This document shows positions 1 to 24,402 of a stretch of DNA of 24,402 nt, piece by piece. Both the position numbers and the translations under genes were made by a program. Under the pieces are notes generated by a model. That model saw nothing but the letters and a program-made list of their open reading frames with translations, made no database searches and had not been told where the DNA came from. The stretch is taken from positions 646-25,047 of the IMG/VR virus record IMGVR_UViG_3300030104_002934; one strand, 5' to 3'. Position 1 is the first letter of the stretch; every line of letters begins with the position of its first letter. This DNA comes from a virus.

Positions 1-213
1 ACCTGGAGACACAGAAACAGAACAACAATAAAATACTCGGTGTTTAAAACATCATTCAAATGTTCTCAGTTAATATCTAGGATATATAGAGTGTTGTTAG
101 GTGAAGAAGATTTACCAACATCAGAAAGAAGTGTTTTTTATAATAATAAATCATATACAGATAAGGTTTTTAATAAATCTATAGATGATATGATAAAAGA
201 TAAAGACAGATAA
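1..213 (+). CDS. C-terminal end of an unidentified gene entering from the left (partial)
   Basis: Frame 1 is open from the first base to a TAA at 211-213 and gives 70 residues with no usable ATG near its left end, so the gene would start outside the window. The fragment is basic, with segments such as SERSVFYNNKSYTDKVF and a charged end, IDDMIKDKDR. It matches nothing I recognise. The stop lies one base before the ATG of the next gene, which is the spacing seen elsewhere in this gene string and supports a real coding end. One caveat is that frames 2 and 3 also contain short open stretches at the very edge (to about 31 and 47), so the upstream gene could end in one of those instead. Seventy open codons is unlikely by chance in such AT-rich DNA, but not impossible. 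Confidence 0.5.
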   Translation, partial: TWRHRNRTTIKYSVFKTSFKCSQLISRIYRVLLGEEDLPTSERSVFYNNKSYTDKVFNKSIDDMIKDKDR

Positions 214-214
214 T

Positions 215-637
215 ATGGGATTTAAACTAGGGACAAATAGAGGTAATTATGCTGTTGGCGGAGAGATCAAAACTAAAATGCGTTTTGGTAAAGAAGCTGG
301 TGGTGATGCATCTATCCCTGGTACACCTGTTATCAGAAAACCACTAGAAGAAGGAGTGCTAGGTGAAGCTAATATGGATGGAAGTATATATATTAGTGAT
401 AAAATAATACCTGGTAGTGAAGAAGAAAGACAAGTAATTAATCATGAAATGCGACACTCTACTGACATGAGAGTTGGTAAGTTAGAGTATGGAGATGATT
501 ATATAAAATACAACGGCGATACGTTTGTAAGAGAAACTAAAAATGGTAAAGATATGATAAATATCTATGGAGAATGGAAGGAAGCTGGAGACACCGGTTT
601 TCCTTGGGAAGATGACGCTAATAACGGAAACATATAA
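215..637 (+). CDS. Zincin-like metallopeptidase-family phage protein
   Basis: This is a 140-residue protein with an HExxH motif, HEMRH, at residues 77-81, preceded by a short acidic linker (GSEEERQVIN) that would lead into the active-site helix. In zincins the two His bind zinc and the Glu activates water. A possible third ligand is the Glu in the C-terminal FPWEDDA segment (132), because related Bacteroidota-phage proteins, as I remember them, end in a similar WEKEA-type motif. The N-terminal 45 residues are basic and glycine-rich and look like a virion-protein tail (EIKTKMRFGKEAGGDASIPG). There is no signal peptide or membrane segment. It starts one base after the preceding stop and is followed by small virion/lysis genes. 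Roles compatible with this are maturation protease, cell-wall-acting virion enzyme, or a structural zincin that has lost activity. The motif is clear; the function is inferred. Confidence 0.6.
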   Translation: MGFKLGTNRGNYAVGGEIKTKMRFGKEAGGDASIPGTPVIRKPLEEGVLGEANMDGSIYISDKIIPGSEEERQVINHEMRHSTDMRVGKLEYGDDYIKYNGDTFVRETKNGKDMINIYGEWKEAGDTGFPWEDDANNGNI

Positions 638-648
638 AAATTAAAACT

Positions 649-915
649 ATGCCATACGGAGATAAAAAATCATATTCATTTTTTAAAATGAAAGGTAGTC
701 CACATAAAATGGGGACAATAGAAGGAACATCAGCTTTTAAGAAAAAGCTTCCAATAGATAAAAGCAGAAGCTTTGATTTAGACTATACTACAGACGTATC
801 AGCGGTAAACAAAAAGCTAATAAAAGATATGGAAAAAAAATATAAAGCTGGTAAAATTACTAAAAAACAATTAGAAGAAGCGATACGCGAAATTAAAAGC
901 TACGAGGACATTTAA
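649..915 (+). CDS. Small phage protein with N-terminal FKMKGSPHKMG motif
   Basis: This 88-residue protein is basic at its start and helical at its end. Residues 12-22 read FKMKGSPHKMG, a motif that also occurs in altered form (SPMKMG) near the N-terminus of the internal virion protein at 21403-22317. The C-terminal half, with LIKDMEKKYKAGKITKKQLE at about 57-76, is predicted helical and resembles a short helix-hairpin, possibly a binding module. No enzyme motif, signal peptide or membrane segment is present. The start follows the previous stop by 11 bases with an A-rich leader and no Shine-Dalgarno. I do not know a function. The shared motif suggests it is a minor virion component or is delivered to the virion. 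Confidence 0.7.
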   Translation: MPYGDKKSYSFFKMKGSPHKMGTIEGTSAFKKKLPIDKSRSFDLDYTTDVSAVNKKLIKDMEKKYKAGKITKKQLEEAIREIKSYEDI

Positions 916-927
916 TAAAATTAAATT

Positions 928-1320
928 ATGAATATATTAGGAAAAATATTTTCAAGTGGAGCTACTGATTTAGTAAAAGGTGTAGGTGGTGTTATAGATA
1001 ACTTACACACTTCTAAAGAAGAAAAGCTTGAAGCTGAAAAGAAAATTAAAGATATGATAATGGGTTATGAAGCTCAAATGCAAAAAGAAGTTTCTAACAG
1101 ATGGGGTATGGATATGAATTCAGACTCTTGGTTATCAAAAAACATAAGACCATTAGTTCTTATATTTCTAGTTATATCAACAGTATTGATGATATTTATC
1201 GATGCTGGTGTTTTAGCTTTTGAAGTAAAAGACACTTGGGTAGACTTATTACAATTAGTATTAATAACAGTGATTGGTGCTTACTTCGGTGGTAGATCAC
1301 TAGAAAAAGTAAAAAAATAA
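928..1320 (+). CDS. Phage holin, GTA/3TM-type
   Basis: This 130-residue membrane protein is expected to form holes in the inner membrane at lysis. Residues 1-28 form an amphipathic stretch (MNILGKIFSSGATDLVKGVG), followed by a charged coiled-coil-like region (30-58). The conserved-looking segment DSWLSKNIRPL then leads into a first membrane helix at about 74-95 and a second at about 104-120, ending in a positive tail (SLEKVKK). A tryptophan and SKNIRP just before the first membrane helix is characteristic of the holin family named after gene transfer agents (GTA_holin_3TM), which fits this architecture. It sits in a run of small genes next to the zincin-like gene and ahead of the packaging genes. 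I see no endolysin in the immediate neighbourhood. Confidence 0.8.
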   Translation: MNILGKIFSSGATDLVKGVGGVIDNLHTSKEEKLEAEKKIKDMIMGYEAQMQKEVSNRWGMDMNSDSWLSKNIRPLVLIFLVISTVLMIFIDAGVLAFEVKDTWVDLLQLVLITVIGAYFGGRSLEKVKK

Positions 1321-7660: not shown

Positions 7661-8878
7661 ATGGCAAAAAAGAAAAAAGAACAGGTAACTGAAGAAGTTA
7701 CTAAAGAACAAGTTGACAACAAGGTAGAAGAAACAAAACCTGAAATTGATTTGAATAAATTTGAAAGTAAAGATGACGATAGTGTTATCAAGGTAGATTT
7801 AAGTAAAAAACCAGAAGAAATAAATGAAACCAAAGAAGAAGTTGTTGAAGATAACACTAACGACGAAGGAGTGGTTGAACTCGTTGAAGATGCCGACACC
7901 TCAGAAAAACAAGAAGAAGTACAACCGGAAGCAGAAACACAAGAAACTACAATTTTAGAAGAAATAACTGAAGAAGAAGTTAAAGAAGAAGTTGAAGAAC
8001 TAACTGAACAAGTTGAAGAAGCAGTTGCGGAAGCTGAGGCTACTGGTAAAGAACTTCCTGAAAACATTCAGAAACTAATGCAGTTTATGGAGGAAACTGG
8101 TGGTGATTTAGAGGATTACGTTAATTTAAACCAAGATTATAGTAAACTAGATAATCACACTTTACTTAAAGAATACTACAAACAAACAAAACCTCATCTA
8201 GATAACGAAGAAATAGATTTTATGATGGAAGACTATTTTTCTTATGACGAAGAGATAGATGATAGTGTAGACATTAAAAGAAAAAAATTAGCCATGAAGG
8301 AGCAAGTTGCTCAGGCAAGGCAACACTTGGACAGTGCAAAGTCCAAATATTACGAAGATATTAAATATGGTTCTAAGCTCACTGGTGAGCAACAGAAAGC
8401 AGTTGATTTCTTCAATAGATACAACAAAGAATCAAAAGAACAGCAAGAAGTAGCAGAAAAGCAACACAAGACATTTTTAAATAAAACTAATCAGTTATTC
8501 AACAAAAATTTCAAAGGTTTTGAATATGAAGTTGGAGATAAAAAGTTTAGATTTAATGTTAAAGACTCAGACGCAGTAAAAGGTACTCAAAGCGACATTA
8601 ATAATTTTGTCAAGAAGTTCTTGAATAAAAACAATGAAATGGAAGACGCTAAAGGTTATCATAAGTCAATATACACTGCTATGAATGCTGATAAAATTGC
8701 TAGTCACTTTTACGAACAAGGTAAGGCTGACGCTTTAAAAAATAGCGTAGCTAAATCTAAAAACATTAGTATGGATCCACGACAACAACATAGTGGTGAG
8801 ATTGATGCTGGTGGTATAAAAGTAAGAGTACTTGGTGAAAATTCTAATGATTTCAAATTCAAAATTAAAAATAAATAA
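7661..8878 (+). CDS. Candidate capsid scaffolding protein
   Basis: This 405-residue, strongly charged protein lies between the portal and the major capsid genes, the standard place for a scaffold. The first 140 residues are Lys-rich for about 12 positions (MAKKKKEQVTEEVTKEQV) and then highly acidic (for example EEITEEEVKEEVEELTEQVE), and are probably disordered. The centre and C-terminal half (about 145-345) are helical, with coiled-coil character around KEQVAQARQHLDSAKSKYYE. The protein ends in a small basic segment, FKFKIKNK, of the sort that often contacts the capsid shell. No enzymatic motif is seen. A scaffold role is inferred from position and composition only. The alternative is an internal virion protein. 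Confidence 0.65.
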   Translation: MAKKKKEQVTEEVTKEQVDNKVEETKPEIDLNKFESKDDDSVIKVDLSKKPEEINETKEEVVEDNTNDEGVVELVEDADTSEKQEEVQPEAETQETTILEEITEEEVKEEVEELTEQVEEAVAEAEATGKELPENIQKLMQFMEETGGDLEDYVNLNQDYSKLDNHTLLKEYYKQTKPHLDNEEIDFMMEDYFSYDEEIDDSVDIKRKKLAMKEQVAQARQHLDSAKSKYYEDIKYGSKLTGEQQKAVDFFNRYNKESKEQQEVAEKQHKTFLNKTNQLFNKNFKGFEYEVGDKKFRFNVKDSDAVKGTQSDINNFVKKFLNKNNEMEDAKGYHKSIYTAMNADKIASHFYEQGKADALKNSVAKSKNISMDPRQQHSGEIDAGGIKVRVLGENSNDFKFKIKNK

Positions 8879-11329: not shown

Positions 11330-11485
11330 ATGGAAAAATCTAAAGGCTTAGGTGATACAATAGAAAAAATAACAACTGCAACTGGAATAAAGAAATTTGT
11401 ACACAAAGTAGCGGGAGACGATTGTGGTTGTAATAAAAGAAAACAAACGTTAAATAAGGTCTTCCCTTATAAAAATAAAAAATAA
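11330..11485 (+). CDS. Short Cys-containing protein, 51 residues
   Basis: A 51-codon gene from ATG at 11330 to TAA at 11483-11485 reads MEKSKGLGDTIEKITTATGI, then KKFVHKVAGDDCGCNKRKQT and a C-terminal LNKVFPYKNKK. The next gene starts on the very next base. The pattern GLGDTIExxTxATGIKKxV, then DCGCxxRKxxLNKxFPY, is familiar to me from Bacteroidota phages, including gut types. CGC beside basic residues suggests metal binding or a redox-active site, but two cysteines do not make a complete zinc site on their own. An A/T leader (AAATTAAATTAT) precedes the start and there is no Shine-Dalgarno. It lies in the gap between the longer genes that flank it and is easily missed because of its size. No function is known to me. 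Confidence 0.8.
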   Translation: MEKSKGLGDTIEKITTATGIKKFVHKVAGDDCGCNKRKQTLNKVFPYKNKK

Positions 11486-13774: not shown

Positions 13775-16700
13775 ATGCCAGAGATTAAAAACACTTTTGT
13801 TCAAGGTAAAATGAATAAAGACCTTGATGAAAGAATAGTTCCAAATGGACAATATAGAGACGCGGTAAATATACAGGTTTCAACTTCTGACGAAGCAGGA
13901 GTTGGAACTGTGCAAAATATATTAGGTAACACTAAGATAGGGAGTTTAACGTTACCTGATAACAGCTCTACTTGGGAGTGCGTTGGTTCTATAGCTGACG
14001 AAAAAAACGATGTTTTATATTCTTTTATTACGGATGATGTTAATAGTGTGGTAGTGGAGTATACGAAATCTGGTTCAGCTAATTTAGTTGTAGTTGATTT
14101 AACTAACACTGTTTTAAAATTTTCTACAGGTAATATTATAACTGGGATTAATATAATAGATGGATTATTATTTTGGACAGATGGAGTTAATGAACCTAAA
14201 AAAATAAATATAGAAAGATGTAAAGCTGGTACAAGTGATTTTAGTACACATACTAAATTAGTTGTTAATAACAATGATTTTTCTAAAATAGTAAACACTC
14301 TTTGGACACAAGATTTTTCTGACGCAAGTGCTGGTACTACTGATTTATATTTAAGTAATCTTGGAACCGCATCAAACCCAAATGTTAAAATTGGTGACGA
14401 ATTAATAGAGTTTGAATCTGGTAATAACAATAATATTAACACCCCATCAAATAAAAATGTTACTGCTGTTGATTACGCAAATGGAATAGTAACTATAAAT
14501 ACTTCAATTTATAATGGAACTGGAATCGCTAATACTGGTCAATATGTAAAGTTCGCTACAGCTCAGCCCTTAAAAGAAGAGCATATTACTGTTATAAAGA
14601 AAAAACCTACACAAGCTCCAAGAATAGATTTTAACATAATAGATGATACAAGTGCAAATTCAGGTTCTTTAAATTCTTTTTCAATAAGTGGTGTTACGGT
14701 TGGACAAACAAGCGTAAGTATAAGCGCACCAATGAATAGACGTAAAATTTGGGAAAGTGGATCAGCTAATTTAACACCAGATCCTTACACGTTAATTACT
14801 GGTGACACTGTTAGTCAATCTTTTGCAACATCAAACTCAATAACTATATACGATGGTATTCCTTACGGTGTTAATGATGGTGATATTTTATTGTTAAGCG
14901 ATCCTAGTGCGCAAGGAGTTTTACCAAATAACGCGCAAATAAGATTTTTAGTTACAACTAGTCCTACTGTTACTATGACCGCGGGTTTTGGAGCTACAGG
15001 AGGATCAAGTGCTGATGACCCAGAGTATACGCAAACATTTACAGGCACTATATTATCTATAGATTCTGGAACTTCTTTAGACTCTATACAATATGATTTT
15101 GTTGTAGAAGATTTAAATGATTTATTATTTACTAAATCTTTCCCAAGGTTTGCTTATAGATACAAATATGAAGATGGAGAATACTCTGCTTTTAGTCCGT
15201 TTACACAAGTAGGATTTACTGTAGGAGAATTTAGTATACATCCTACTAAAGAACCTTATAATTCAGCGATGGAAACTAGAGTTAAAAGCATTGCGTTGAA
15301 AGAATTTATAACACATGATATACCTTTAAACGTAGTAGAAGTTGATTTACTTTATAAACCTGATAATTCAACTACTGTATACTCTATAGAAACTATTAAA
15401 CCAAGTGCTGTAGGCACAAATGGACCTTGGGAATTAGTAGGTTTAGATTACGCTAGCTCTCCACCAGGTGAAATAGATACTATAACACTTCCTTCTGGTA
15501 ATGAATTAGTAGCTTCTAATACCGGCTACTATAGAATAACTGCCGATAATATCCACGCTGCCCTACCTTCAAATCAATTATTAAGACCCTGGGATAACGT
15601 TCCAAAAACAGCTAAAGCACAAGAGGTTACAGGTAACAGACTTGTTTATGGTAATTATGTTCAAAATTTAAAATTAGAAGATTACACTCCATATATCGTT
15701 ACTAGATATCAGAAAAGAAGTTTTCCTGGAACTGATATAGATTATAGTGATGGAAAACAATCAGTAAAATCTCAAAGAACATACCAAGGAGGTATAGTTT
15801 TTGGAGATAAATACGGTAGAGAAACACCGGTTTTTAGCGGAGGAGGTAATCATATTGTAAAGATTCCCTACGATAACGATCAAACGGTTGTTTTTAATGG
15901 AATGGCTAGTAGATCTAATAGGTTGTACGTGAGACATTCTCCTGTAGATCTACCTATAATGAGTAACGATAATAACTCCACTCTTGATTACGAACCGTAT
16001 TATTTTAAAATATTTATAAAAGAAACCGCTTCAGAATACTACAACTTAGTAATGGATAGAGTATATAGAGCAGAAGAAGATGGTAATTTATGGATATCTT
16101 TTCCTTCGAGTGATAGAAACAAAATACAAGAAGATGATTATATAATCCTTAAAAAAGGATTAGGAACTTTAGGTAATCCTGCTACCCAAGTTCCGTTTGA
16201 AAATAAATACAAGGTAATTGATATAAAGAACGAAGCACCTGAATTTATAAAGAAAAAATACCAAGAAATAGGACAACTAGATGGAGATGGTACGTTAACA
16301 GGACCTAATGGTTTATATCTTAATGGAGCGCAGCCTTTCGTAGGAACAAATAGTCTTATAATAAGTAAAGATTCTTTTTTAAATGAGGGCCTCGCGGATA
16401 TACAACACGAATACGATAAAGGCACTAAACAATCTCTTACGTTTAAAGTAACTAACGCTAATGGTGATGAAATAATTTCTCAAAGATATAAAATAATATC
16501 GCTAACTACAACAGATTCAACTATAGATTTTTATACTATAATTCTAGATAAAGCTATTGTACAAGCAGATGGTTGGGTAGAAACTAGCATTGGTGTTTTA
16601 GATACGAGTTTAAAAACAACTATTTGGATAGAAGAACAACAAGAATGGGAAGAGTTCCAGGGAAGATTTTTTGTAAAAATATTATCTGATATAGTTACAG

Positions 16701-19654
16701 ATGAATATTTAGAATCTCAAATTGGAACAATAATATCAACTACTTTAGAAGCTAGAACTAAATTATTTTATATTAGTGATCAAACTGCAACTAATAATGG
16801 AGCTCCAACTACTTCAAATCCATCTCCAGGTATTCATGGATCTGGACTGTTTCAGGGATTGCACGGTTTTGACTCACAGCAATCTAATACTCCAAACGTA
16901 AAAAATCAATCTTTATCTGACACTAAAGGCGAGTGGGCTGATGAAAATTTAGAGTTTGATAACGGACAAACAAGCGAAGGATGGTTTATAGACCACGCTT
17001 TTTCAGCAGCGCAACAACCAACTATATTGTCCGATACTAGTGGTTGGTCAAACCATGATTCAAGCGCCAGTATTTACGACGCTTCCGTTTCTGGTAATTT
17101 ACGTGAAGCTCATTCTCAAAAAGTAAACGGTATGACCGGTATTGTCGAAACTGACAAATATTATACTGACGAATCATTTGGAAGGTTCATGTGGATTAAA
17201 CAGTTTGGTAATGGACAAGTAAGAAGTGGATCGGGAAGCAGTTTTTCAAATTATAAAGAAACAAACGTCTACGGTAACGAAAACGGTAAACATTACATGC
17301 ATTTATCTTTTTCTGGAGTTGGAGAGCATTTAGCTCCAGACGGTCCAACTATCACTCAAGGTAACAGCACTGGTACGTCTGTTTTCAATAAATTTACTTT
17401 ACACCACATACACAATTACAACCAACAAAACGACACTACTACGTACCCATTTAACCACAGTGATATAACACAAGATACTGCGTACGTGCCAGATCCAAAT
17501 ATCTACGAAAAACAATGGGATATAACACATAATCACCCTGAAAACGAAGCGATTCTTCAAAACTTAGTGGTAGGTAGTAAGTTTCAGTTTGAAAATGATG
17601 TGAATGAAACAATATTTACGATATTAAAGGTTACTAAAAAACATCTGTATAATCACACCGCGTGGAACAGAACTTACGTTTGGGATCATAGCGCTCTAGA
17701 AAACGTACTTGACGATGTTGATGTCCCCGTGGGAACTTCTGTTTGGGCAGCTTGGCATAAATGGAGAAGTTTAAGCGGTGGTAATAGTACTAATATAGCT
17801 AATTGGAATAGTTACAAACAGAAAGTTAAAAATTTTGCGGCGCCTCACAATAGAAGAGTTTGCTTTATAATAGAGTTAGATAAAAATCCTAGTACTGAAG
17901 TTTACGATGGAACTAACACTGGAATACAAAGTGTTCTTAAAGCATTAACTAACAACAATGATTTAGGTGCGAGTGCTGCTAGTAACTTACCGCAAACTCC
18001 AGGTTTTTTAAAGTTTATAAAAAATTATATTTCTGAAAACTCTACCGTTTTAAGTGATGACCCTGCTGTTTGGGAAACAGAACCTAAAGAAAATACAGAT
18101 TTAGATATTTATTACGAAGCATCAGACGCGATACCATTAAAGTTAGATTTAGAATCTACAAACAGTGATAAAGCCGCTGATCCAGACAATAGAAAAGGGC
18201 ATATGATAGCACCTGTTGGAACGGCTGTTAGATGTACTAAAACAAATTCACACACTGCTACAACTAACTTTGGTGATTGTGTAGTTAAAAGTTGGGATGG
18301 AAGAATAGTACAATTAGATCCAGGACTAACTGCGTTGACTGATGATATAGACGATGGTTCTGGAGGAACAACACCTGCTTCAGCAAATAGCACAAGTGAT
18401 CAAACAGAGTTGTTTGAAGATTCTACATTAAGATTCTACAGAAAAGATCTAAGTTATGTTGAAGTTGGAATCGACACTATAGAAACTATAGATACTGGTA
18501 AAATAACAAAAATAGCGTTAAATAGAACGTTAAACAAAAATATAGGATTGCCATATTTTAATTGTTTTACTTTTGGTAACGGAGTTGAATCTAATAGAAT
18601 TAGAGATGACTTTAACCAACCATTTATAAGTAACGGAGCTAGAGCTTCATCAACCTTACAAGAGCAGTATAAAGAAGAAAACAGAAAAAGTGGATTGATA
18701 TATTCTGGTATATATAACGATACTGGTGGGATCAATAATCTCAACCAGTTTATAATGGCTGAAAAGATTACAAAAGATTTAAACCCTACATACGGTAGTA
18801 TACAAAAATTATTTTCAAGAAGAATAAGTTTAATAGCTTTTTGTGAAGATAGAGTAGTAGGGATAACAGCAAATAAAAACGCTTTATATAACGCGGATGG
18901 AGACCCACAAATAGTAGCTTCTGACGCTGTATTAGGTGATGCAAATCCTTTTGTTGGTGATTATGGTATATCTAAAAATCCAGAATCATTCGCGAAAGAA
19001 TCATATAGAGCTTATTTTACAGATAGACAACGTGGAGCTGTTTTAAGATTATCAATGGATGGATTAACACCGATATCAGACGCTGGTATGAGTGATTGGT
19101 TTAAAGATGAATTTAAAGATGACACACATGTAAATATTATTGGTAGTTATGATAATTATAAAAACGATTATAATTTAACGTTCGATAGAGGAGACAACAC
19201 TACTTACGGTATACAAGGAAATACAAGTGGTCATAGTCAAACAGTTACTTATAGTGAAGACGTGAAAGGTTGGACTAGTTTCAAATCGTTTATACAAGAG
19301 TCAGGTATTAGCATGTCTGGAGATTATTATACTTTTAACGCGGGTCAATGTTATAAACACCATGATAATTCAACGAGAAATAGTTTTTATGGTGCTTCTA
19401 CTAATTCTAATATAACGTTTTTATTAAATGAATCTCCTCTTATTATTAAAAACTACAATACTTTAAATTACGATGGAGACGAAAGTTGGATTTGTAATAG
19501 TATTGAAACAGATCAACAAGGTGGAACTGTTTCAAGTTTTATTGAAAAAGAAGGAAAATGGTTTAATTACATTAGTGGTAACGATAACGTGGTAGATACG
19601 CAGGCTTTTAATTTTCAGGGAATAGGAATTGCTAACGATATAACATCTATATAA
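13775..19654 (+). CDS. Giant tail hub / stabilisation protein (P22 gp10-like)
   Basis: This is a 1959-residue protein, the largest of the window. The first 60 residues are the clearest mark: NTFVQGKMNKDLDERIVPNG and QYRDAVNIQVSTSDEAGVGT, a start typical of phage stabilisation or tail hub proteins of the P22 gp10 type. The C-terminal 350 residues also look like propeller-blade sequence (SLIAFCEDRVVGITANKN, YRAYFTDRQRGAVLRLSMDG). The two halves would build one propeller, with a very long middle region inserted. That middle has beta-rich segments and a His-rich part at about residues 1070-1380 (for example LHHIHNYNQQ at 1209-1218 and THNHPENE). It is preceded by the tail adaptor and followed, with a one-base TAATG overlap, by another beta-rich tail protein. 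Expected role: to plug the tail and hold DNA, possibly carrying receptor contacts. Confidence 0.75.
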   Translation: MPEIKNTFVQGKMNKDLDERIVPNGQYRDAVNIQVSTSDEAGVGTVQNILGNTKIGSLTLPDNSSTWECVGSIADEKNDVLYSFITDDVNSVVVEYTKSGSANLVVVDLTNTVLKFSTGNIITGINIIDGLLFWTDGVNEPKKINIERCKAGTSDFSTHTKLVVNNNDFSKIVNTLWTQDFSDASAGTTDLYLSNLGTASNPNVKIGDELIEFESGNNNNINTPSNKNVTAVDYANGIVTINTSIYNGTGIANTGQYVKFATAQPLKEEHITVIKKKPTQAPRIDFNIIDDTSANSGSLNSFSISGVTVGQTSVSISAPMNRRKIWESGSANLTPDPYTLITGDTVSQSFATSNSITIYDGIPYGVNDGDILLLSDPSAQGVLPNNAQIRFLVTTSPTVTMTAGFGATGGSSADDPEYTQTFTGTILSIDSGTSLDSIQYDFVVEDLNDLLFTKSFPRFAYRYKYEDGEYSAFSPFTQVGFTVGEFSIHPTKEPYNSAMETRVKSIALKEFITHDIPLNVVEVDLLYKPDNSTTVYSIETIKPSAVGTNGPWELVGLDYASSPPGEIDTITLPSGNELVASNTGYYRITADNIHAALPSNQLLRPWDNVPKTAKAQEVTGNRLVYGNYVQNLKLEDYTPYIVTRYQKRSFPGTDIDYSDGKQSVKSQRTYQGGIVFGDKYGRETPVFSGGGNHIVKIPYDNDQTVVFNGMASRSNRLYVRHSPVDLPIMSNDNNSTLDYEPYYFKIFIKETASEYYNLVMDRVYRAEEDGNLWISFPSSDRNKIQEDDYIILKKGLGTLGNPATQVPFENKYKVIDIKNEAPEFIKKKYQEIGQLDGDGTLTGPNGLYLNGAQPFVGTNSLIISKDSFLNEGLADIQHEYDKGTKQSLTFKVTNANGDEIISQRYKIISLTTTDSTIDFYTIILDKAIVQADGWVETSIGVLDTSLKTTIWIEEQQEWEEFQGRFFVKILSDIVTDEYLESQIGTIISTTLEARTKLFYISDQTATNNGAPTTSNPSPGIHGSGLFQGLHGFDSQQSNTPNVKNQSLSDTKGEWADENLEFDNGQTSEGWFIDHAFSAAQQPTILSDTSGWSNHDSSASIYDASVSGNLREAHSQKVNGMTGIVETDKYYTDESFGRFMWIKQFGNGQVRSGSGSSFSNYKETNVYGNENGKHYMHLSFSGVGEHLAPDGPTITQGNSTGTSVFNKFTLHHIHNYNQQNDTTTYPFNHSDITQDTAYVPDPNIYEKQWDITHNHPENEAILQNLVVGSKFQFENDVNETIFTILKVTKKHLYNHTAWNRTYVWDHSALENVLDDVDVPVGTSVWAAWHKWRSLSGGNSTNIANWNSYKQKVKNFAAPHNRRVCFIIELDKNPSTEVYDGTNTGIQSVLKALTNNNDLGASAASNLPQTPGFLKFIKNYISENSTVLSDDPAVWETEPKENTDLDIYYEASDAIPLKLDLESTNSDKAADPDNRKGHMIAPVGTAVRCTKTNSHTATTNFGDCVVKSWDGRIVQLDPGLTALTDDIDDGSGGTTPASANSTSDQTELFEDSTLRFYRKDLSYVEVGIDTIETIDTGKITKIALNRTLNKNIGLPYFNCFTFGNGVESNRIRDDFNQPFISNGARASSTLQEQYKEENRKSGLIYSGIYNDTGGINNLNQFIMAEKITKDLNPTYGSIQKLFSRRISLIAFCEDRVVGITANKNALYNADGDPQIVASDAVLGDANPFVGDYGISKNPESFAKESYRAYFTDRQRGAVLRLSMDGLTPISDAGMSDWFKDEFKDDTHVNIIGSYDNYKNDYNLTFDRGDNTTYGIQGNTSGHSQTVTYSEDVKGWTSFKSFIQESGISMSGDYYTFNAGQCYKHHDNSTRNSFYGASTNSNITFLLNESPLIIKNYNTLNYDGDESWICNSIETDQQGGTVSSFIEKEGKWFNYISGNDNVVDTQAFNFQGIGIANDITSI

Positions 19655-20952
19655 TGAAAAAAATAACAGGATTTAACACAAGCCCAGTAGAAATATCTTC
19701 TAAAGCCACCGCGGTAACAGTAAATGTTTTGGGTGATAATGGAGCTATGTTTAACTTACAAATAAAAGATAATTCATCTCCAAATAAATTTTATAACTTT
19801 ATAACAAATACGTTTACTAATACTTTTTCATCTGAAAACACGTTAAGCAAAGCAACTATTACTGGTGCTTTTAGTACATCGGTTATTTTACCGGCTAATT
19901 CAAGTGGTGACACCTATAGGTTTTTGTTATTTGCATACCCTGAATTTGAAACTGAAATATCTAATCTTGCTAGTTCTGATAGTAATTTTATTGCAACAGA
20001 AGTAACACAGGGCAAACAAGTGGGGGTTAGATTCTCTACTTCTTCAGATCAAGCTGATGCTCAGTTCGTAGGAATAGGTAGTTTTTCTGACAACGATAGT
20101 GCAACAATGAAAGTAGATGATTCTGCTGGATCTACATCAAAAAGAGTTATGTCCATAAGTAAAACAATATCAGATAGTAGTGACGCTCCTCTTCTTGGAT
20201 ATAAATATACATTACCTTCCAGTACTAATAACAGAAATAGTTTAGCAGATTCACTACAACCTAAAGATAGAGATTTTTTCATTAAAGTAACAGGGCAAAC
20301 AAATGGTACTGGAACAAACTCTAATAGTATGATTTTAGATAGTGTAGATGGTTTAGTCGTCGGTATGAGTTTGGTAGATATAGCAGATAGTTCAGACGAA
20401 GAGCAAAGTGGCACGTTAGGAGTTTTGACGTATCCTACTATTACAGCTATAGATGTAGACGCAAAAACAGTTACGCTTTCTACAACGCCTAGTTGGGGAG
20501 ATGACAAAGCTGTTGTATTTAGAGCTTATGGATCTGATTTAATATCTCAGTCTACTGGAGGATCATTTAGTTTTGATTTAACCGTTACCCCTGTAACATC
20601 TGATAATAGCAAAACAAACAACTTTGGAACAGTTACAGTCAATGGTAATGTTAGTGCTAGTACTTCTATAGCTATAGATGGTATTAGTGGTGTTTCTGTT
20701 GGAAGTAAAATAATTGGGAGTGGAGTAACAACTTCTAGTAACGCAAATTTAATAACAGCTGTTCACGCTTCTGGAACACCTATAACTGTTACGGGAGCAC
20801 AAACAATTAAAGATAACACGGTTTTACGTGTTTATGGATCATCAGCTTACGCTTTGATAGAGGGAACTATGACTGTATCTGTTTTCCCAACAGATAGCGT
20901 AGATGTATTTTACGATATTGATAGAGCTTTTATATTAGCAACTAATTCTTAA
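19654..20952 (+). CDS. Beta-rich tail or virion surface protein with internal repeats
   Basis: This 432-residue protein is rich in Ser, Thr, Asn and Asp with no enzyme motif. Two segments share a plan: SNSMILDSVDGLVVGMSLVD (about 225-244) leading to PTITAIDVDAKTVTLSTTPS, and STSIAIDGISGVSVGSKIIG (about 335-354) leading to ANLITAVHASGTPITVTGAQ, each closing on a strand with a YGS motif. Repeats of this kind are frequent in marine phage tail proteins and probably form small beta domains. The N-terminal half (about 1-120) is a separate beta domain. It shares a base with the stop of the hub gene (TAATG), which points to coupled translation. A tail appendage or hub-associated component is likely. 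A receptor-binding role is possible but unsupported. Confidence 0.65.
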   Translation: MKKITGFNTSPVEISSKATAVTVNVLGDNGAMFNLQIKDNSSPNKFYNFITNTFTNTFSSENTLSKATITGAFSTSVILPANSSGDTYRFLLFAYPEFETEISNLASSDSNFIATEVTQGKQVGVRFSTSSDQADAQFVGIGSFSDNDSATMKVDDSAGSTSKRVMSISKTISDSSDAPLLGYKYTLPSSTNNRNSLADSLQPKDRDFFIKVTGQTNGTGTNSNSMILDSVDGLVVGMSLVDIADSSDEEQSGTLGVLTYPTITAIDVDAKTVTLSTTPSWGDDKAVVFRAYGSDLISQSTGGSFSFDLTVTPVTSDNSKTNNFGTVTVNGNVSASTSIAIDGISGVSVGSKIIGSGVTTSSNANLITAVHASGTPITVTGAQTIKDNTVLRVYGSSAYALIEGTMTVSVFPTDSVDVFYDIDRAFILATNS

Positions 20953-20956
20953 AATT

Positions 20957-21361
20957 ATGCCAGATAGAATAACCTTTGATAAAAATATAAACGAATCAGT
21001 ACAGGTTGGAGACAAGTTATATTACTGCACGATAACACCTGGTACTTGTAGTATACGTCCATCAAATAACAATACAGAACTTCTTTGTATTGACGCTGGT
21101 GGAATTTGGACACCTCCTGTTGTTGGTACTAGAACTGAAATAGGAGATATCACCGCTATTGGTAAAAAATACGTAGAAGTTGCTAGTGTTGGTAGTGCTG
21201 CAGTAGGTGATTTCTTTATGTTTAGAAAGCCTGAGCATAATAACTATACAAATGTATCTAGTTTAAAAGGATATTTTGCAGAAGTACAATTTACAAATAA
21301 CTCTTCTGTAAAACAAGAATTATTCGCTGTAGGCTCCGAAGTAACAGTTAGTAGTAAATAA
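20957..21361 (+). CDS. Small virion protein of unknown function
   Basis: This 134-residue protein has one beta-rich domain: KLYYCTITPGTCSIRPSNNN with two Cys in the first half, EIGDITAIGKKYVEVASVGS and GDFFMFRKPEHNNYTN in the centre, and a C-terminal conserved-looking block, SLKGYFAEVQFTNNSSVKQE then LFAVGSEVTVSSK. The last block is familiar from marine phages, where the protein lies among tail and internal virion genes. No function is known to me. The gap to the tail protein before it is four bases; the gap to the next gene is 41 bases, without clear signals. It is probably a minor structural component. Confidence 0.7.
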   Translation: MPDRITFDKNINESVQVGDKLYYCTITPGTCSIRPSNNNTELLCIDAGGIWTPPVVGTRTEIGDITAIGKKYVEVASVGSAAVGDFFMFRKPEHNNYTNVSSLKGYFAEVQFTNNSSVKQELFAVGSEVTVSSK

Positions 21362-21402
21362 AACACAAAAAGTGTAACTATAAATAGATAAAATAGAATA
21401 AT

Positions 21403-22317
21403 ATGGCAAAATTACCGGTGGGATATAAATCCCCTTTTAATAAAATTTCTTCAATAAAACCTTCGCCGATGAAAATGGGTGGAGGAGCGGCAGCAGTAGC
21501 ACCAGTAGCAGCCCCAGCCGCTGGCGCAGGAGCACAAATGTTATTATCGGCGGCTCCAGGAATTATGACAGCTCTTGGAAGTATATTTGGTAGAAAGAAA
21601 AGAAGAAGAGAACAAACCGCTGCTAGAAAAGAATTAGAAGCAGCTAAAAAAGCTTTTGAAGATATAGAGTTTGTAAATCCATACTTAGGATTAACTAATC
21701 CGTATGCTGGTATGGAAAACGTATATGAAGATGCTACTGTAGACATGCAGGCCGCAGATTATTTAAGACAACAACAACAACAATCCCAAGCTAATGTTAT
21801 GGCTAATTTAAAAGGTGTTGCTGGAGGAGCTGGAGTTGCTGGGTTAGCACAACAAATGGCTAATATATCTACTGGACAAGCTAGACAAGCTTCTGCTCAA
21901 ATAGCACAACAAGAAAGAGCTAACCAACAAAGAGCTATGGCTGAATCTACTAGAATAGATCAACTACAAAGAACTGGTCAATCACAAGTAGATATAGCTA
22001 AAATGCAGGGTGAGATGATGAAAAAAGCAAAGGAAGATAAAAAAACAGAGATGATGTACGGTTTAAGTATAGAGAGAATGAACGCTGCAGACGCAGCTAG
22101 AAGACAAGCTAGAGCTCAATTAACTGCTGGCCTAGGTCAAGCTATAAGTGGTGTCGCTGGAACGTACGCTCCTGGCGGCGCTAGATCAGGTCAATTTGGG
22201 ACAGACATGTTTAACATATCTGGCGGTATGTTTGGTACTAATCCAAGTTACGGTATGTCTCCGTATGCGCCAAGTTACCGTGGACTACCAACAGGTGGAA
22301 TTCCTTATAGATATTAA
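21403..22317 (+). CDS. Internal virion / ejection protein candidate
   Basis: This is a 304-residue protein. The N-terminus holds SPMKMG at residues 21-26, a Gly/Ala/Pro-rich stretch and a hydrophobic segment at about 44-63 (AQMLLSAAPGIMTALGSIFG) followed by basic residues (RKKRRR). The middle is a long Gln/Ala-rich helical region (RQQQQQSQANVMANLKGVAG, then GLAQQMANISTGQARQASAQ) likely to be a coiled coil. The C-terminal 50 residues are Gly, Tyr and Pro-rich (GTNPSYGMSPYAPSYRG) and probably disordered. This plan, together with its place at the end of the tail block, suits a protein packed inside the head that is ejected with the DNA and forms part of a channel across the envelope. The assignment is inference. 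A helical tail-internal protein is the other option. Confidence 0.65.
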   Translation: MAKLPVGYKSPFNKISSIKPSPMKMGGGAAAVAPVAAPAAGAGAQMLLSAAPGIMTALGSIFGRKKRRREQTAARKELEAAKKAFEDIEFVNPYLGLTNPYAGMENVYEDATVDMQAADYLRQQQQQSQANVMANLKGVAGGAGVAGLAQQMANISTGQARQASAQIAQQERANQQRAMAESTRIDQLQRTGQSQVDIAKMQGEMMKKAKEDKKTEMMYGLSIERMNAADAARRQARAQLTAGLGQAISGVAGTYAPGGARSGQFGTDMFNISGGMFGTNPSYGMSPYAPSYRGLPTGGIPYRY

Positions 22318-22327
22318 AATATAAATT

Positions 22328-24402
22328 ATGGCAGAAGATAATAAAAAAGAAGATAATCTAACTGGTTTAGATCAATTTAGTTTAGATAAAATCGCTGGAG
22401 TAAAAATGGGTGGTATTAAACCTAAAGCAATAGACACTACGGGGATTGACGAGCAAATAGCAGCGTTAGAAAAACCTGCTAGTGGTAATGTTTATGATAA
22501 AATGGCAGCTAGATATAGATCACAAGGTGAAGCAGCTGTTCTACGTACGCAAAAAAACTTAGCTAATTTATTTGGTCCTACAATTACTTTAATACAAGAA
22601 AGAGAAGCCGCTGCTCAAAATAGATTTACGTTATTAAAAGATAAATTACCTGAATTTGACGACTCTACTATATTTGGACATCAAAGTGGTAATCCGATGC
22701 CTATTGTAGATGAAATAAAAAGAATATCACAAGCTACCAAAGAAGATATGCGTATGTTATCTCGTTTAAATATTAACGATGAAAGATACGATGAAATAAA
22801 AAAGAGGATTGAAAAGAATCAAGATGCTATTGTAGCTTTCGATGCAATTAACGAAAAGTTATTAGAAATAAGAAACTCTCAAGATGGTCGTGAAGATGAG
22901 TCTCAATGGAGTAGAGGTATGGATGCAACCACAAGAAGAATGTGGGAAGATATATATTCTAGTAGCGGTCAAAATATAAAAATACAAAACGGTAAACTAG
23001 TTTGGACAGATACAAAAGGTACTACCAGTTATGAGTTTGAAGGCGGAAGTTATCAAGACGATAAATACGAGGCGCTTGGAGGATATGATACTACTTTAGG
23101 TAAATTAACGTTTATGACTAGGGATAATGATGGAAACCAACACACATTTAAAAAAGGACAGAAGGTTTACGGTGAAAACTATGATATCACAGGCGTGCAA
23201 GAAGCTTTAATTGAAGGTGGTTTTACTGATGCTAACGGTAACGAACTTGATCCTGATGGTGAATGGGGTCCTAAATCTCAAGCTGCTTATGATAAGTATT
23301 TAAAAAACAAAGATAAATTAGAGAAAGAATGGCTTGATGAAAACTACGAAGGAGATCTTAGAAAAACTACTGGTATCGGCGAGACTAAAGTAATAGATTT
23401 AAACGAAATAGGTGATGGTCCAACAACAATAGATAACCTTGGAATAAAAAAAGATATAGAAGTACAAAGCGCTATTCAAGAACTTATAAACAAGAATATA
23501 ACAGTAAACACACCTGGATACGAATCTCAAGTAAGCGCACTTATTCGTACTATAAATTCAGTTGGACCAAAAGGCATTAAATCTTTAATATTTGACGGAT
23601 TTGGAGCGGAACAAGGTGATGTACTTAAAAGTACTAATACAGATTCTTTTATAGAACAAATTATACAAAACAATCCTGAAGAGTTTGGTATTAAAGACGT
23701 AGAAAATTTAACCGAAGAAGAAATAGCTAACGCATACGATATAATGAGATCTAGAGATGTAACTTATAGTTATTCTAACGAATTAGGAGAATCTAAAACT
23801 TTACAGTCACAATACTTACAATGGTATAGAAAACAAATTGATACTAAAGTTCAAGAAGGCGTTAAAACTAATAGGAAAATTAGTAGTAAAAAAACTACTG
23901 GTAAAGCAACAAATTTTAAATCTTGGAAAAATTTCAAAAAAGGTTTTTCTTCTATTTCTAAAGAAAATATTCAGTCAAGTGGTTATCAAATTCCAAATAT
24001 TAGCGATGGAGAAAACACTTATTCACCTGTTTTAAAACTAAATGAAGACGGTAAAAGTTATGATATAATTTTTGATGAAGATAACGCGTTAAATCAAACA
24101 GGGTTATCTGTTAAAGAAGCTGCTTCGCAATTAAAAGAATTACTTACTATAACAGGTGTTATTAAAAAAGGGCAAGATATTAGTATCGATGCTATTGAAG
24201 ATATGCTTGTAGGTAATGTCGGAGAAGTTCCTGAAGATATTGACTTTGAAAGAAAAGTAGAAATAGCACAACAACCATATATTGAAAAAATGAGTCAAGG
24301 CGTAAGCGTAGATTATATAGTTGACAATATATGGCAACCTAATACTCCTGAAGGTTATAATATGGGTGAAAATGGAAAGGCACTTTTTGATTATTTAGCA
24401 GA
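22328..24402 (+). CDS. Large internal virion-type protein with peptidoglycan-binding-like segment (partial)
   Basis: From ATG at 22328 the frame stays open for 691 codons to the right edge without a stop, so the gene continues beyond the window. The N-terminus has a KMGG motif (about 26-29, in KIAGVKMGGIKPK), echoing its upstream neighbour. A helical region follows (such as EIKRISQATKEDMRMLSRLN). Residues 286-324 read DITGVQEALIEGGF then DPDGEWGPKSQAAYDKY, which matches the order of a peptidoglycan-binding (PG_binding_1) helix bundle: V-Q-x-x-L, a Gly, D-G-x-W/F-G-P-x-T/S, A-Y. The remainder is mixed and acidic with no recognised catalytic centre. A likely role is a virion protein that contacts the cell wall during DNA entry. 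A tail-associated lysin is possible only if a catalytic domain lies beyond the edge. Confidence 0.75.
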   Translation, partial: MAEDNKKEDNLTGLDQFSLDKIAGVKMGGIKPKAIDTTGIDEQIAALEKPASGNVYDKMAARYRSQGEAAVLRTQKNLANLFGPTITLIQEREAAAQNRFTLLKDKLPEFDDSTIFGHQSGNPMPIVDEIKRISQATKEDMRMLSRLNINDERYDEIKKRIEKNQDAIVAFDAINEKLLEIRNSQDGREDESQWSRGMDATTRRMWEDIYSSSGQNIKIQNGKLVWTDTKGTTSYEFEGGSYQDDKYEALGGYDTTLGKLTFMTRDNDGNQHTFKKGQKVYGENYDITGVQEALIEGGFTDANGNELDPDGEWGPKSQAAYDKYLKNKDKLEKEWLDENYEGDLRKTTGIGETKVIDLNEIGDGPTTIDNLGIKKDIEVQSAIQELINKNITVNTPGYESQVSALIRTINSVGPKGIKSLIFDGFGAEQGDVLKSTNTDSFIEQIIQNNPEEFGIKDVENLTEEEIANAYDIMRSRDVTYSYSNELGESKTLQSQYLQWYRKQIDTKVQEGVKTNRKISSKKTTGKATNFKSWKNFKKGFSSISKENIQSSGYQIPNISDGENTYSPVLKLNEDGKSYDIIFDEDNALNQTGLSVKEAASQLKELLTITGVIKKGQDISIDAIEDMLVGNVGEVPEDIDFERKVEIAQQPYIEKMSQGVSVDYIVDNIWQPNTPEGYNMGENGKALFDYLA

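Follow-up and report, generated by a model that had tools for sequence, protein, structure and literature searches.

Near the 5' end of a viral DNA stretch lies a short gene whose product carries the motif HEMRH. The question is whether this protein is a zinc peptidase and, if so, whether it serves the processing of virion proteins or acts on the cell wall, the two roles offered in the initial annotation. The stretch, referred to as the window, is the whole 24,402-nt sequence taken from IMG/VR record IMGVR_UViG_3300030104_002934 (record positions 646-25,047), see Table 1. Judged by its sequence, the ORF is a real gene: compared with eight close relatives its synonymous codon differences (12-38) exceed the non-synonymous ones (10-19), and relatives are encoded in 351 of 355 and 582 of 598 candidate stretches from IMG/VR.

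The HEMRH motif is present at the annotated residues of a protein of the annotated length. In the window genes tested, HExxH occurs once, against 0.13 occurrences expected by residue shuffling; the count covered the 20 complete plus-strand genes (7,278 residues), with the 5'-open gene 1-213 and the 3'-open gene at 22328 standing outside it. For a shuffled copy of the 140-residue protein itself, the probability of an HExxH is 0.0016. Further on lies FPWEDDA, which begins at residue 129, so that its Glu is residue 132.

Table 1. Features at the locus and, in the last row, large virion-module proteins of related contigs. Positions refer to the window unless a contig is named.
Feature	Position	Strand	Basis
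Putative DNA-binding gene, 3' part, directly upstream of the zincin gene	1..213	+	MW202828 homologue annotated 'repressor protein'
Probable gluzincin-type protein (zincin), 140 aa	215..637	+	ORF from ATG, relatives, predicted fold
N-terminal tag MGFKLG, residues 1-6, opening the predicted disordered segment 1-33	215..232	+	M1 invariant, F3 at least 90% in 76 sequences
HEMRH, residues 77-81: two putative His ligands and putative catalytic Glu	443..457	+	Invariant in 76/76; inside predicted helix 69-86
E132, putative third zinc ligand, in FPWE	608..610	+	Invariant in 76/76; inside predicted helix 130-137
Tagged neighbour, 88 aa, FKMKGSPHKMG near N-terminus	649..915	+	ORF, tag pattern
Holin-like membrane protein	928..1320	+	phrog_3427 holin, E 5.4e-31
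Giant HExxH virion-module protein	G001 21126-28388; G005 16694-23572; G017 32764-39771		

The product of this ORF is probably a small zinc peptidase of the gluzincin type, and we refer to it as the zincin. Its main family comprises 140 loci, a count that includes the record of the window itself (L081) and a few contigs twice over, with 120 distinct sequences. The proteins have 139-145 residues; all 140 loci contain both HExxH and FPWE, and in 139 an Asp follows three residues past the motif (HExxHxxD). A divergent set consists of 69 sequences, obtained from the 73 scan matches listed by dropping two incomplete or ambiguous ones and two duplicates. HExxH is found in all 69, while the Asp is replaced by Q, E, R or A in 36 of them. 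We aligned 76 sequences, namely the window, ten main-family members (L140 among them), the relatives L182 and L188, and 63 of the 69 divergent sequences. Although identity to the window falls to 17%, five columns are invariant, and they are the only ones: M1, H77, E78, H81 and E132. At the level of sequence this set is the gluzincin signature. The residues preceding E132 vary among the divergent members. Since E132 is invariant in all 76 sequences, the initial guess that the third ligand is the Glu of FPWEDDA holds; the conservation of the His and Glu residues in relatives, proposed as a check, was thus found, and HExxH is nowhere lost in the alignment.

L182 came from a DNA pattern search for HEL.H..D followed by PWE, which gave four matches, and is a relative at 38% identity; L188 was found by a search with L182. 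The other three matches were dropped, two being copies of a 282-aa zincin-like protein and one a frame that looks polymerase-like by eye. The zincin diverges far faster than the terminase of the same phages: identities to the window are 27% for the zincin vs 73% for the terminase in L188, 30% vs 70% in L301 and 30% vs 71% in L242. Such fast divergence would fit changing substrates or a host target.

No cultured phage with a main-family zincin was found by tblastn with two main-family queries (E up to 1 and 10). The divergent L301, the sole query to do so, detected distant relatives in large phage genomes, one of them annotated as 'ImmA/IrrE family metallopeptidase'. In a profile search limited to five sequences, the family profile recognises those of phages OC, XacN1, Cr30 and Melnitz-3 (E 1e-11 to 1e-5) but not the fifth, that of phiM12. 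For the main family, Pfam and PHROG scans returned only weak matches, such as M90, M91 and eCIS_core, and an NCBIfam scan gave nothing useful.

Two single relatives deserve mention. G109 carries at 8354-8737 a zincin copy with two in-frame stops, either a decaying gene or a sequencing error. L140, on contig JAAXIF010000025.1 of a metagenome-assembled genome (MAG) labelled Sphingobacteriales, was the only relative from one pattern-based scan of assembled genome contigs. Because groEL and terminase genes accompany the zincin there, the contig is probably of phage origin and was binned into the MAG.

Structurally, two AlphaFold2 models, built from alignments of 116 close and 76 divergent sequences, agree on a disordered N-terminus, a small sheet, a helix at residues 69-86, five short strands at residues 90-123 and a last helix. 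The disordered stretch covers most of the first 27 to 33 residues (pLDDT below 50 for residues 1-33 in the second model). Confidence is moderate, with an overall pLDDT of 74-75 and values of about 84-92 across residues 41-130 in the second model. In both models HExxH is predicted to lie within a helix, as expected from the initial annotation, which had named a non-helical motif as a reason to abandon the idea, and E132 lies within the last helix.

The fold comparisons point to zincins as a class. Foldseek against the PDB gave no match below E 0.1, the best rows nonetheless being zincins, and the deep family profile matches selecase (E 0.0017) over 52 positions that cover a strand and the HExxH region. 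In the VIA comparison, where a Z below 8 may reflect only a common arrangement and where the families named are those among the matches listed, IrrE/PprI and an M. tuberculosis regulator, which we take to be PrpR, reach Z 5.8-6.3 (rmsd 3.4-6.3 A over 81-89 residues) and a DPC-repair protease (6mdx), presumably SprT, reaches Z 5.3-5.5. The minigluzincins score below these other zincins, with Z 4.1-4.8 (abylysin 4.8, selecase 4.2). The three leading groups are effectively tied, so these models indicate a zincin and not which family of zincins. Among viral models an uncultured virus supplies the best match, an uncharacterised protein (E 1e-6), and SprT-like phage proteins account for several of the rows that follow. 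The type that the initial annotation assigned is therefore also the predicted one, given the invariance of HExxH and E132, the helical setting of both motifs and the selecase match.

The initial annotation further called the protein a minimal zincin. Small it is, but its size is not new, as the minigluzincins selecase (MJ1213, about 110 residues), abylysin and jannalysin are equally small. Since selecase is a zinc peptidase of about 110 residues and is matched by the family profile, a zincin of this size has precedent. The minigluzincins also share the single HExxH helix and the Glu in a later helix. However, the phage zincin differs from them in its N-terminal tag and disordered segment, in the five-strand stretch between the two putative active-site helices and in being encoded in a phage morphogenesis region. 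With the ImmA/IrrE group (M78; IrrE/PprI and, presumably, PrpR), which provides the best VIA rows, it shares HExxH and the downstream Glu, but it has no HTH in the same chain and no Pfam M78 match above cut-off (one divergent member reaches E 0.16). SprT-like phage metallopeptidases are close in the viral structural comparison, whereas the Pfam scans made gave no SprT match.

The zincin domains of phage polyvalent proteins, as described in PMC5512222, likewise combine HExxH with a Glu in the next helix, and one clade of them has an Asp three residues past HExxH, as does nearly the whole main family here. By contrast, the phage zincin is a stand-alone protein and not part of a large multidomain one, and by eye it has no counterpart of the strand His described for this clade. 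For zincin-like peptidases, proposed roles include the processing of phage multidomain proteins or action after injection (PMC5512222) and, in jumbo phages, a part in virion maturation (PMC7824862).

The terminase of the window is 64.6% identical to that of MW202828 (Manatee Spring), 46% to that of the Flavobacterium phages elemo and 38% to those of the Cellulophaga phages phi18:3 and phi38:1; four cultured records reach at most 64.6%. Among zincin-bearing stretches with at least 500 aligned terminase residues (n=124), in contrast, identity to the window is 70-99%. Five stretches with no zincin in view have terminases 76-93% identical, and one of these contigs, G101, carries the zincin further on. 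Published marine genomes related to phi38:1 were attributed to phages of Flavobacteriaceae, and 36 of these genomes encode GroEL (PMC5332604); we infer that the zincin phage clade belongs to this phi38:1-related group. What began as a motif spotted by eye is now a predicted enzyme, conserved in a group of marine phages for which no cultured member was found. At 66.9 kb and with a short terminal repeat, contig G005 of this group looks complete. A match to Hc1 (histone H1-like), possibly a DNA-condensing protein, is seen in G005 (E 1.8e-20) and in G001 (E 9.5e-20).

The gene order of the main family is groEL, groES, a putative DNA-binding gene, zincin, a holin-like gene and terL. We read the product of the DNA-binding gene as a winged helix. 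At loci with room for the respective gene, the DNA-binding gene is found in 87 of 89, groES in 48 of 49, groEL in 27 of 27, the holin-like gene downstream in 139 of 139 (a second holin type in three of them) and terL in 98 of 105. The order groEL, groES, zincin, terL places the zincin in the morphogenesis region. The initial annotation had put it beside the holin gene, which is nearly right: in the window, the 88-aa tagged ORF sits between the two. Elsewhere this interval is filled by variable inserts, which are a 70-aa protein with two transmembrane (TM) stretches, an 'IDGIPLF' protein or small, often basic proteins. The first downstream neighbour (n=137 main-family loci) is holin-like in 57, the two-TM protein in 39, IDGIPLF in 23, tagged in 15, another in two and none in one. 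A fixed zincin-holin unit was considered and is broken by L182, where about 5 kb, groEL included, separate the zincin from the holin, and by L188, where by eye no holin lies beside it.

Two of the inserts are conserved families. The first, of about 70 aa, lies between zincin and holin in L023, L025 and many others, has two TM stretches by eye and the pattern MEIFKDNN.WNEKSI...GISGLEKFAKK, and ends much like the 130-aa holin; it may be a second holin or an antiholin. It is absent from the window, where the tagged ORF occupies its place. The other, of 75-150 aa, is found near the zincin in L018, L045, L047 and others, shows the pattern IDGIPLFST..EAL.W...GL.GYHTH...G..GYMGG..H and is rich in conserved His.

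The start of the zincin is shared with other proteins. Nearly every zincin opens with this tag. In 55 of the 69 divergent zincins it reads MAFKL, MAFKM or MGFKL, and the residues just after it vary and are predicted to be disordered; other small proteins begin with MAFKMKG.SP.K and variants. For a pattern that was chosen after examples had been seen, 42 of the 316 protein clusters from zincin loci are tagged vs 4.0 expected from shuffles, a few of the 42 being frame artefacts or signal-peptide-like. The tag falls within the first 30 residues in 38 of the 316 cluster representatives, vs 15 of 1058 later 30-residue windows. In sequence terms, a MAFK[ML] start is common to the zincin and to about forty otherwise unrelated protein clusters. 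Non-zincin tagged proteins below 260 aa are basic (net charge per residue +0.138 vs +0.021) and 43% of them contain SPxK, vs 4.7%, while the zincin itself is not basic (-0.04). Nine tagged proteins of 240-430 aa had no PHROG match, and a resemblance of two of these to an ejection protein was set aside, as it was by eye alone. No cultured phage was found by tblastn with the tagged proteins tried. For FKMKG, a search of the PMC literature, whose scope leaves out most subscription journals, returned no paper.

Tagged genes cluster around the zincin. In 137 loci chosen for their zincin they are adjacent to it 41 times, whereas 2000 permutations gave 11.0 on average and never more than 20. At 46 of these loci a tagged gene besides the zincin is present, and at the other 91 there is none in the stretch at hand. 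A DNA scan for MAFKMKG, through which the divergent set was collected, yielded at least 118 new stretches, at least 73 of them with a zincin; among the matches listed, the zincin's own start is the sole tag site in 19 of the 73. In 99 stretches another gene carries a tag site, and 54 of these have a zincin among the matches listed. The 45 stretches lacking one come from 44 contigs, and among the matches listed a zincin lies elsewhere on 27 of these, including 10 of the 11 contigs of at least 60 kb. The lone exception is a 120-kb contig whose only tag site may be a chance one. L182 and L188, which were found by zincin motif or similarity and not by the tag scan, both have a tag-like start, and tagged or SPAKMK-type basic proteins are encoded close to their zincins.

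Six cultured relatives showed no zincin and no strict tag, although in elemo a looser scan picks up FKMK at residues 2-5 of a protein annotated as structural. Because these six lack both, tag and zincin may reflect one shared ancestor, and because terminase identities separate the zincin stretches from the cultured records, the two may have been acquired in a single joint event. The correlation is real, though few independent events underlie it.

What is observed is a common start motif, an active site whose residues do not vary, the fold as predicted and the order of the genes; that the protein binds zinc, is proteolytic, is expressed late and is packaged, and what it cuts, are inferences. 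The two His and the general-base Glu of HExxH, with E132 as third ligand, would bind zinc and cut peptides. The disordered N-terminal tag would bring the zincin and the tagged proteins to one place, most likely the capsid, whose interior is pointed to by the chaperonin-terminase neighbourhood and by the basic SPxK proteins. There the zincin would trim or activate tagged cargo during assembly; alternatively, it would be ejected with the cargo and then cut a host protein. Our preferred reading, tentative and somewhat short of even odds, is that the zincin is an active gluzincin located where the tagged proteins are, perhaps as cargo of the virion, and works as a processing or co-ejected protease. 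Of the two roles first offered, virion processing is plausible, compatible with the evidence and near to this reading, while cell-wall action is weakened and unlikely.

A comparison with phage T4 suggests a more specific form. The internal proteins of T4 carry a short N-terminal capsid-targeting sequence that is removed by the head protease gp21, and the known T4 head protease is a serine protease. The systems are alike in having a short N-terminal peptide on variable small basic proteins, a trait that is found here in the tag statistics, for a pattern chosen after the examples. By this analogy, hypervariable small basic proteins could enter the capsid by the MAFKMKG tag together with a tagged gluzincin, the constant member of the set, which would trim the tags or be ejected to disarm the host, a cargo system independent of that of T4. 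Packaging and tag cleavage are known for T4 and would be predictions here, and we consider this form distinctly unlikely. We know of no earlier phage head-cargo protease of the zincin kind. The compartment reading and its cargo-system form are rated somewhat lower than they would otherwise be, and a lysis function, though unlikely, somewhat higher, because a second tagged gene is present in only about a third of the main-family loci, because a zincin accompanies little more than half of the outside tag sites among the matches listed, and because the Melnitz-3 relative neighbours cell-wall genes. The wider point of the finding is the tag, which links the zincin to some forty clusters of proteins, most of them unnamed. 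Should it act as a signal for packaging or processing, an entire class of head cargo could be named from sequence alone and would become testable; should it not, the tag still calls for explanation.

The main rival to the tag-linked reading is an accessory role in lysis, in which a holin-dependent peptidase, in a cassette with one or two holin-like proteins, would, as infection ends, cleave envelope proteins or the cross-links of peptidoglycan. The holin-like gene downstream at every main-family locus with room agrees with it, as does a holin-like or two-TM protein as direct downstream neighbour in 96 of 137 loci. Lysin genes do occur at this position in other phages: a homologous holin was looked at in six phages, and in three of them its neighbour is an M15 or annotated endolysin gene, the other three having none. 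MW202828, elemo, phi38:1 and phi18:3 each carry a lysin-type gene upstream of terL, and Gundel_1 has it downstream. The distant relative in Melnitz-3 sits between a GH108 gene and a cell wall hydrolase gene. VgrG2b, described as an antibacterial T6SS metallopeptidase (PMC12992299), is listed in the first fold comparison with Z 4.4, though not among the rows listed for the second model. In many contigs the lysin-type families searched for were also not found: M15_3 is found in four and DUF5675 in two of 28 long contigs, neither in the other 22, and M15_3 or Amidase_2 in eight of 49 contigs of the divergent set, neither in 41, most of these contigs being fragments in either set. No M15_4 above cut-off was found in the 28. 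However, nine contigs were examined in full (the eight longest of the 28 and one more), and in all seven whose late operon could be followed another lysin-like gene lies in its last part: M15 in four, DUF5675, whose product we read as a lysin or cell-wall protein, in two, and a phrog-endolysin-like gene in one (G001). In the remaining two no marker of the last part of the operon was found. In L242 an amidase gene (E 1.2e-15) lies some 1.6 kb away from the zincin, and L188 encodes, upstream of groEL, a peptidase of the M15_4 family (E 4.6e-11). The Pfam and PHROG matches of the zincin include no significant lysin family; the sole cell-wall match in Pfam scans of 25 members is a LytB WW-like domain in one of them (E 0.15). 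The long contigs, L242 and L188, with their other lysin-like genes, do not support the zincin as sole endolysin. Because the followed contigs carry such genes, and because the zincins of L182 and L188 lie away from the holin, a cell-wall role is weakened, and lysis is therefore kept as a rival, an unlikely one, and not as the main reading.

Two other explanations place the protease outside the particle or pair it with a regulator. As a host-directed protease, which we consider rather unlikely, it would cut a host protein during infection, such as a defence factor or a DNA-bound protein, like small zincins in the accessory regions of large phages. This agrees with the profile matches of OC, XacN1, Cr30 and Melnitz-3, with several of the large-phage relatives sitting among small hypothetical genes, with IrrE, SprT and ArdC structures among the fold neighbours and with the fast divergence. 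However, neither the near-constant position in the morphogenesis region nor the common N-terminal tag follows from it. The regulator-protease pair is a familiar arrangement, as ImmA or IrrE cleave ImmR or DdrO, and here the zincin would cleave the putative DNA-binding protein encoded directly upstream. In 81 of 130 loci no more than 10 nt separate the end of that gene from the zincin, IrrE/PprI and the M. tuberculosis regulator are the top VIA rows (tied with the DPC-repair protease), and a phage relative bears the ImmA/IrrE annotation. But the DNA-binding protein is present with no zincin in MW202828, elemo, phi38:1 and Panino, and its gene lies apart from the zincin in L182 (about 4.7 kb away, beside the holin) and in L188 (about 1.9 kb away), so that such a pair appears highly improbable.

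Several other proteins of these phages were observed in passing. Next to the M15_4 peptidase of L188, positions 220-708 encode a lipoprotein-like protein with a C-terminal hydrophobic stretch, by eye similar to a unimolecular spanin. The 3'-open protein at 22328-24400 of the window weakly resembles the phage endolysin family phrog_17214 at residues 282-324 (E 0.005), a region that looks peptidoglycan-binding by eye. Giant virion-module proteins of 2292-2420 aa carry an HExxH of their own (HELLHG or HEILHG). A relationship of the small zincin to these regions was considered, but no match emerged when the long ORFs of nine contigs were searched with the family profile. A 51-aa protein with the pattern GLGD.IE..T..TGIK..V...CGC is encoded within the virion string of the window, at 11330-11485, and in seven divergent loci, among them L242, L214, L219, L226 and L218, it is the upstream neighbour of the zincin.
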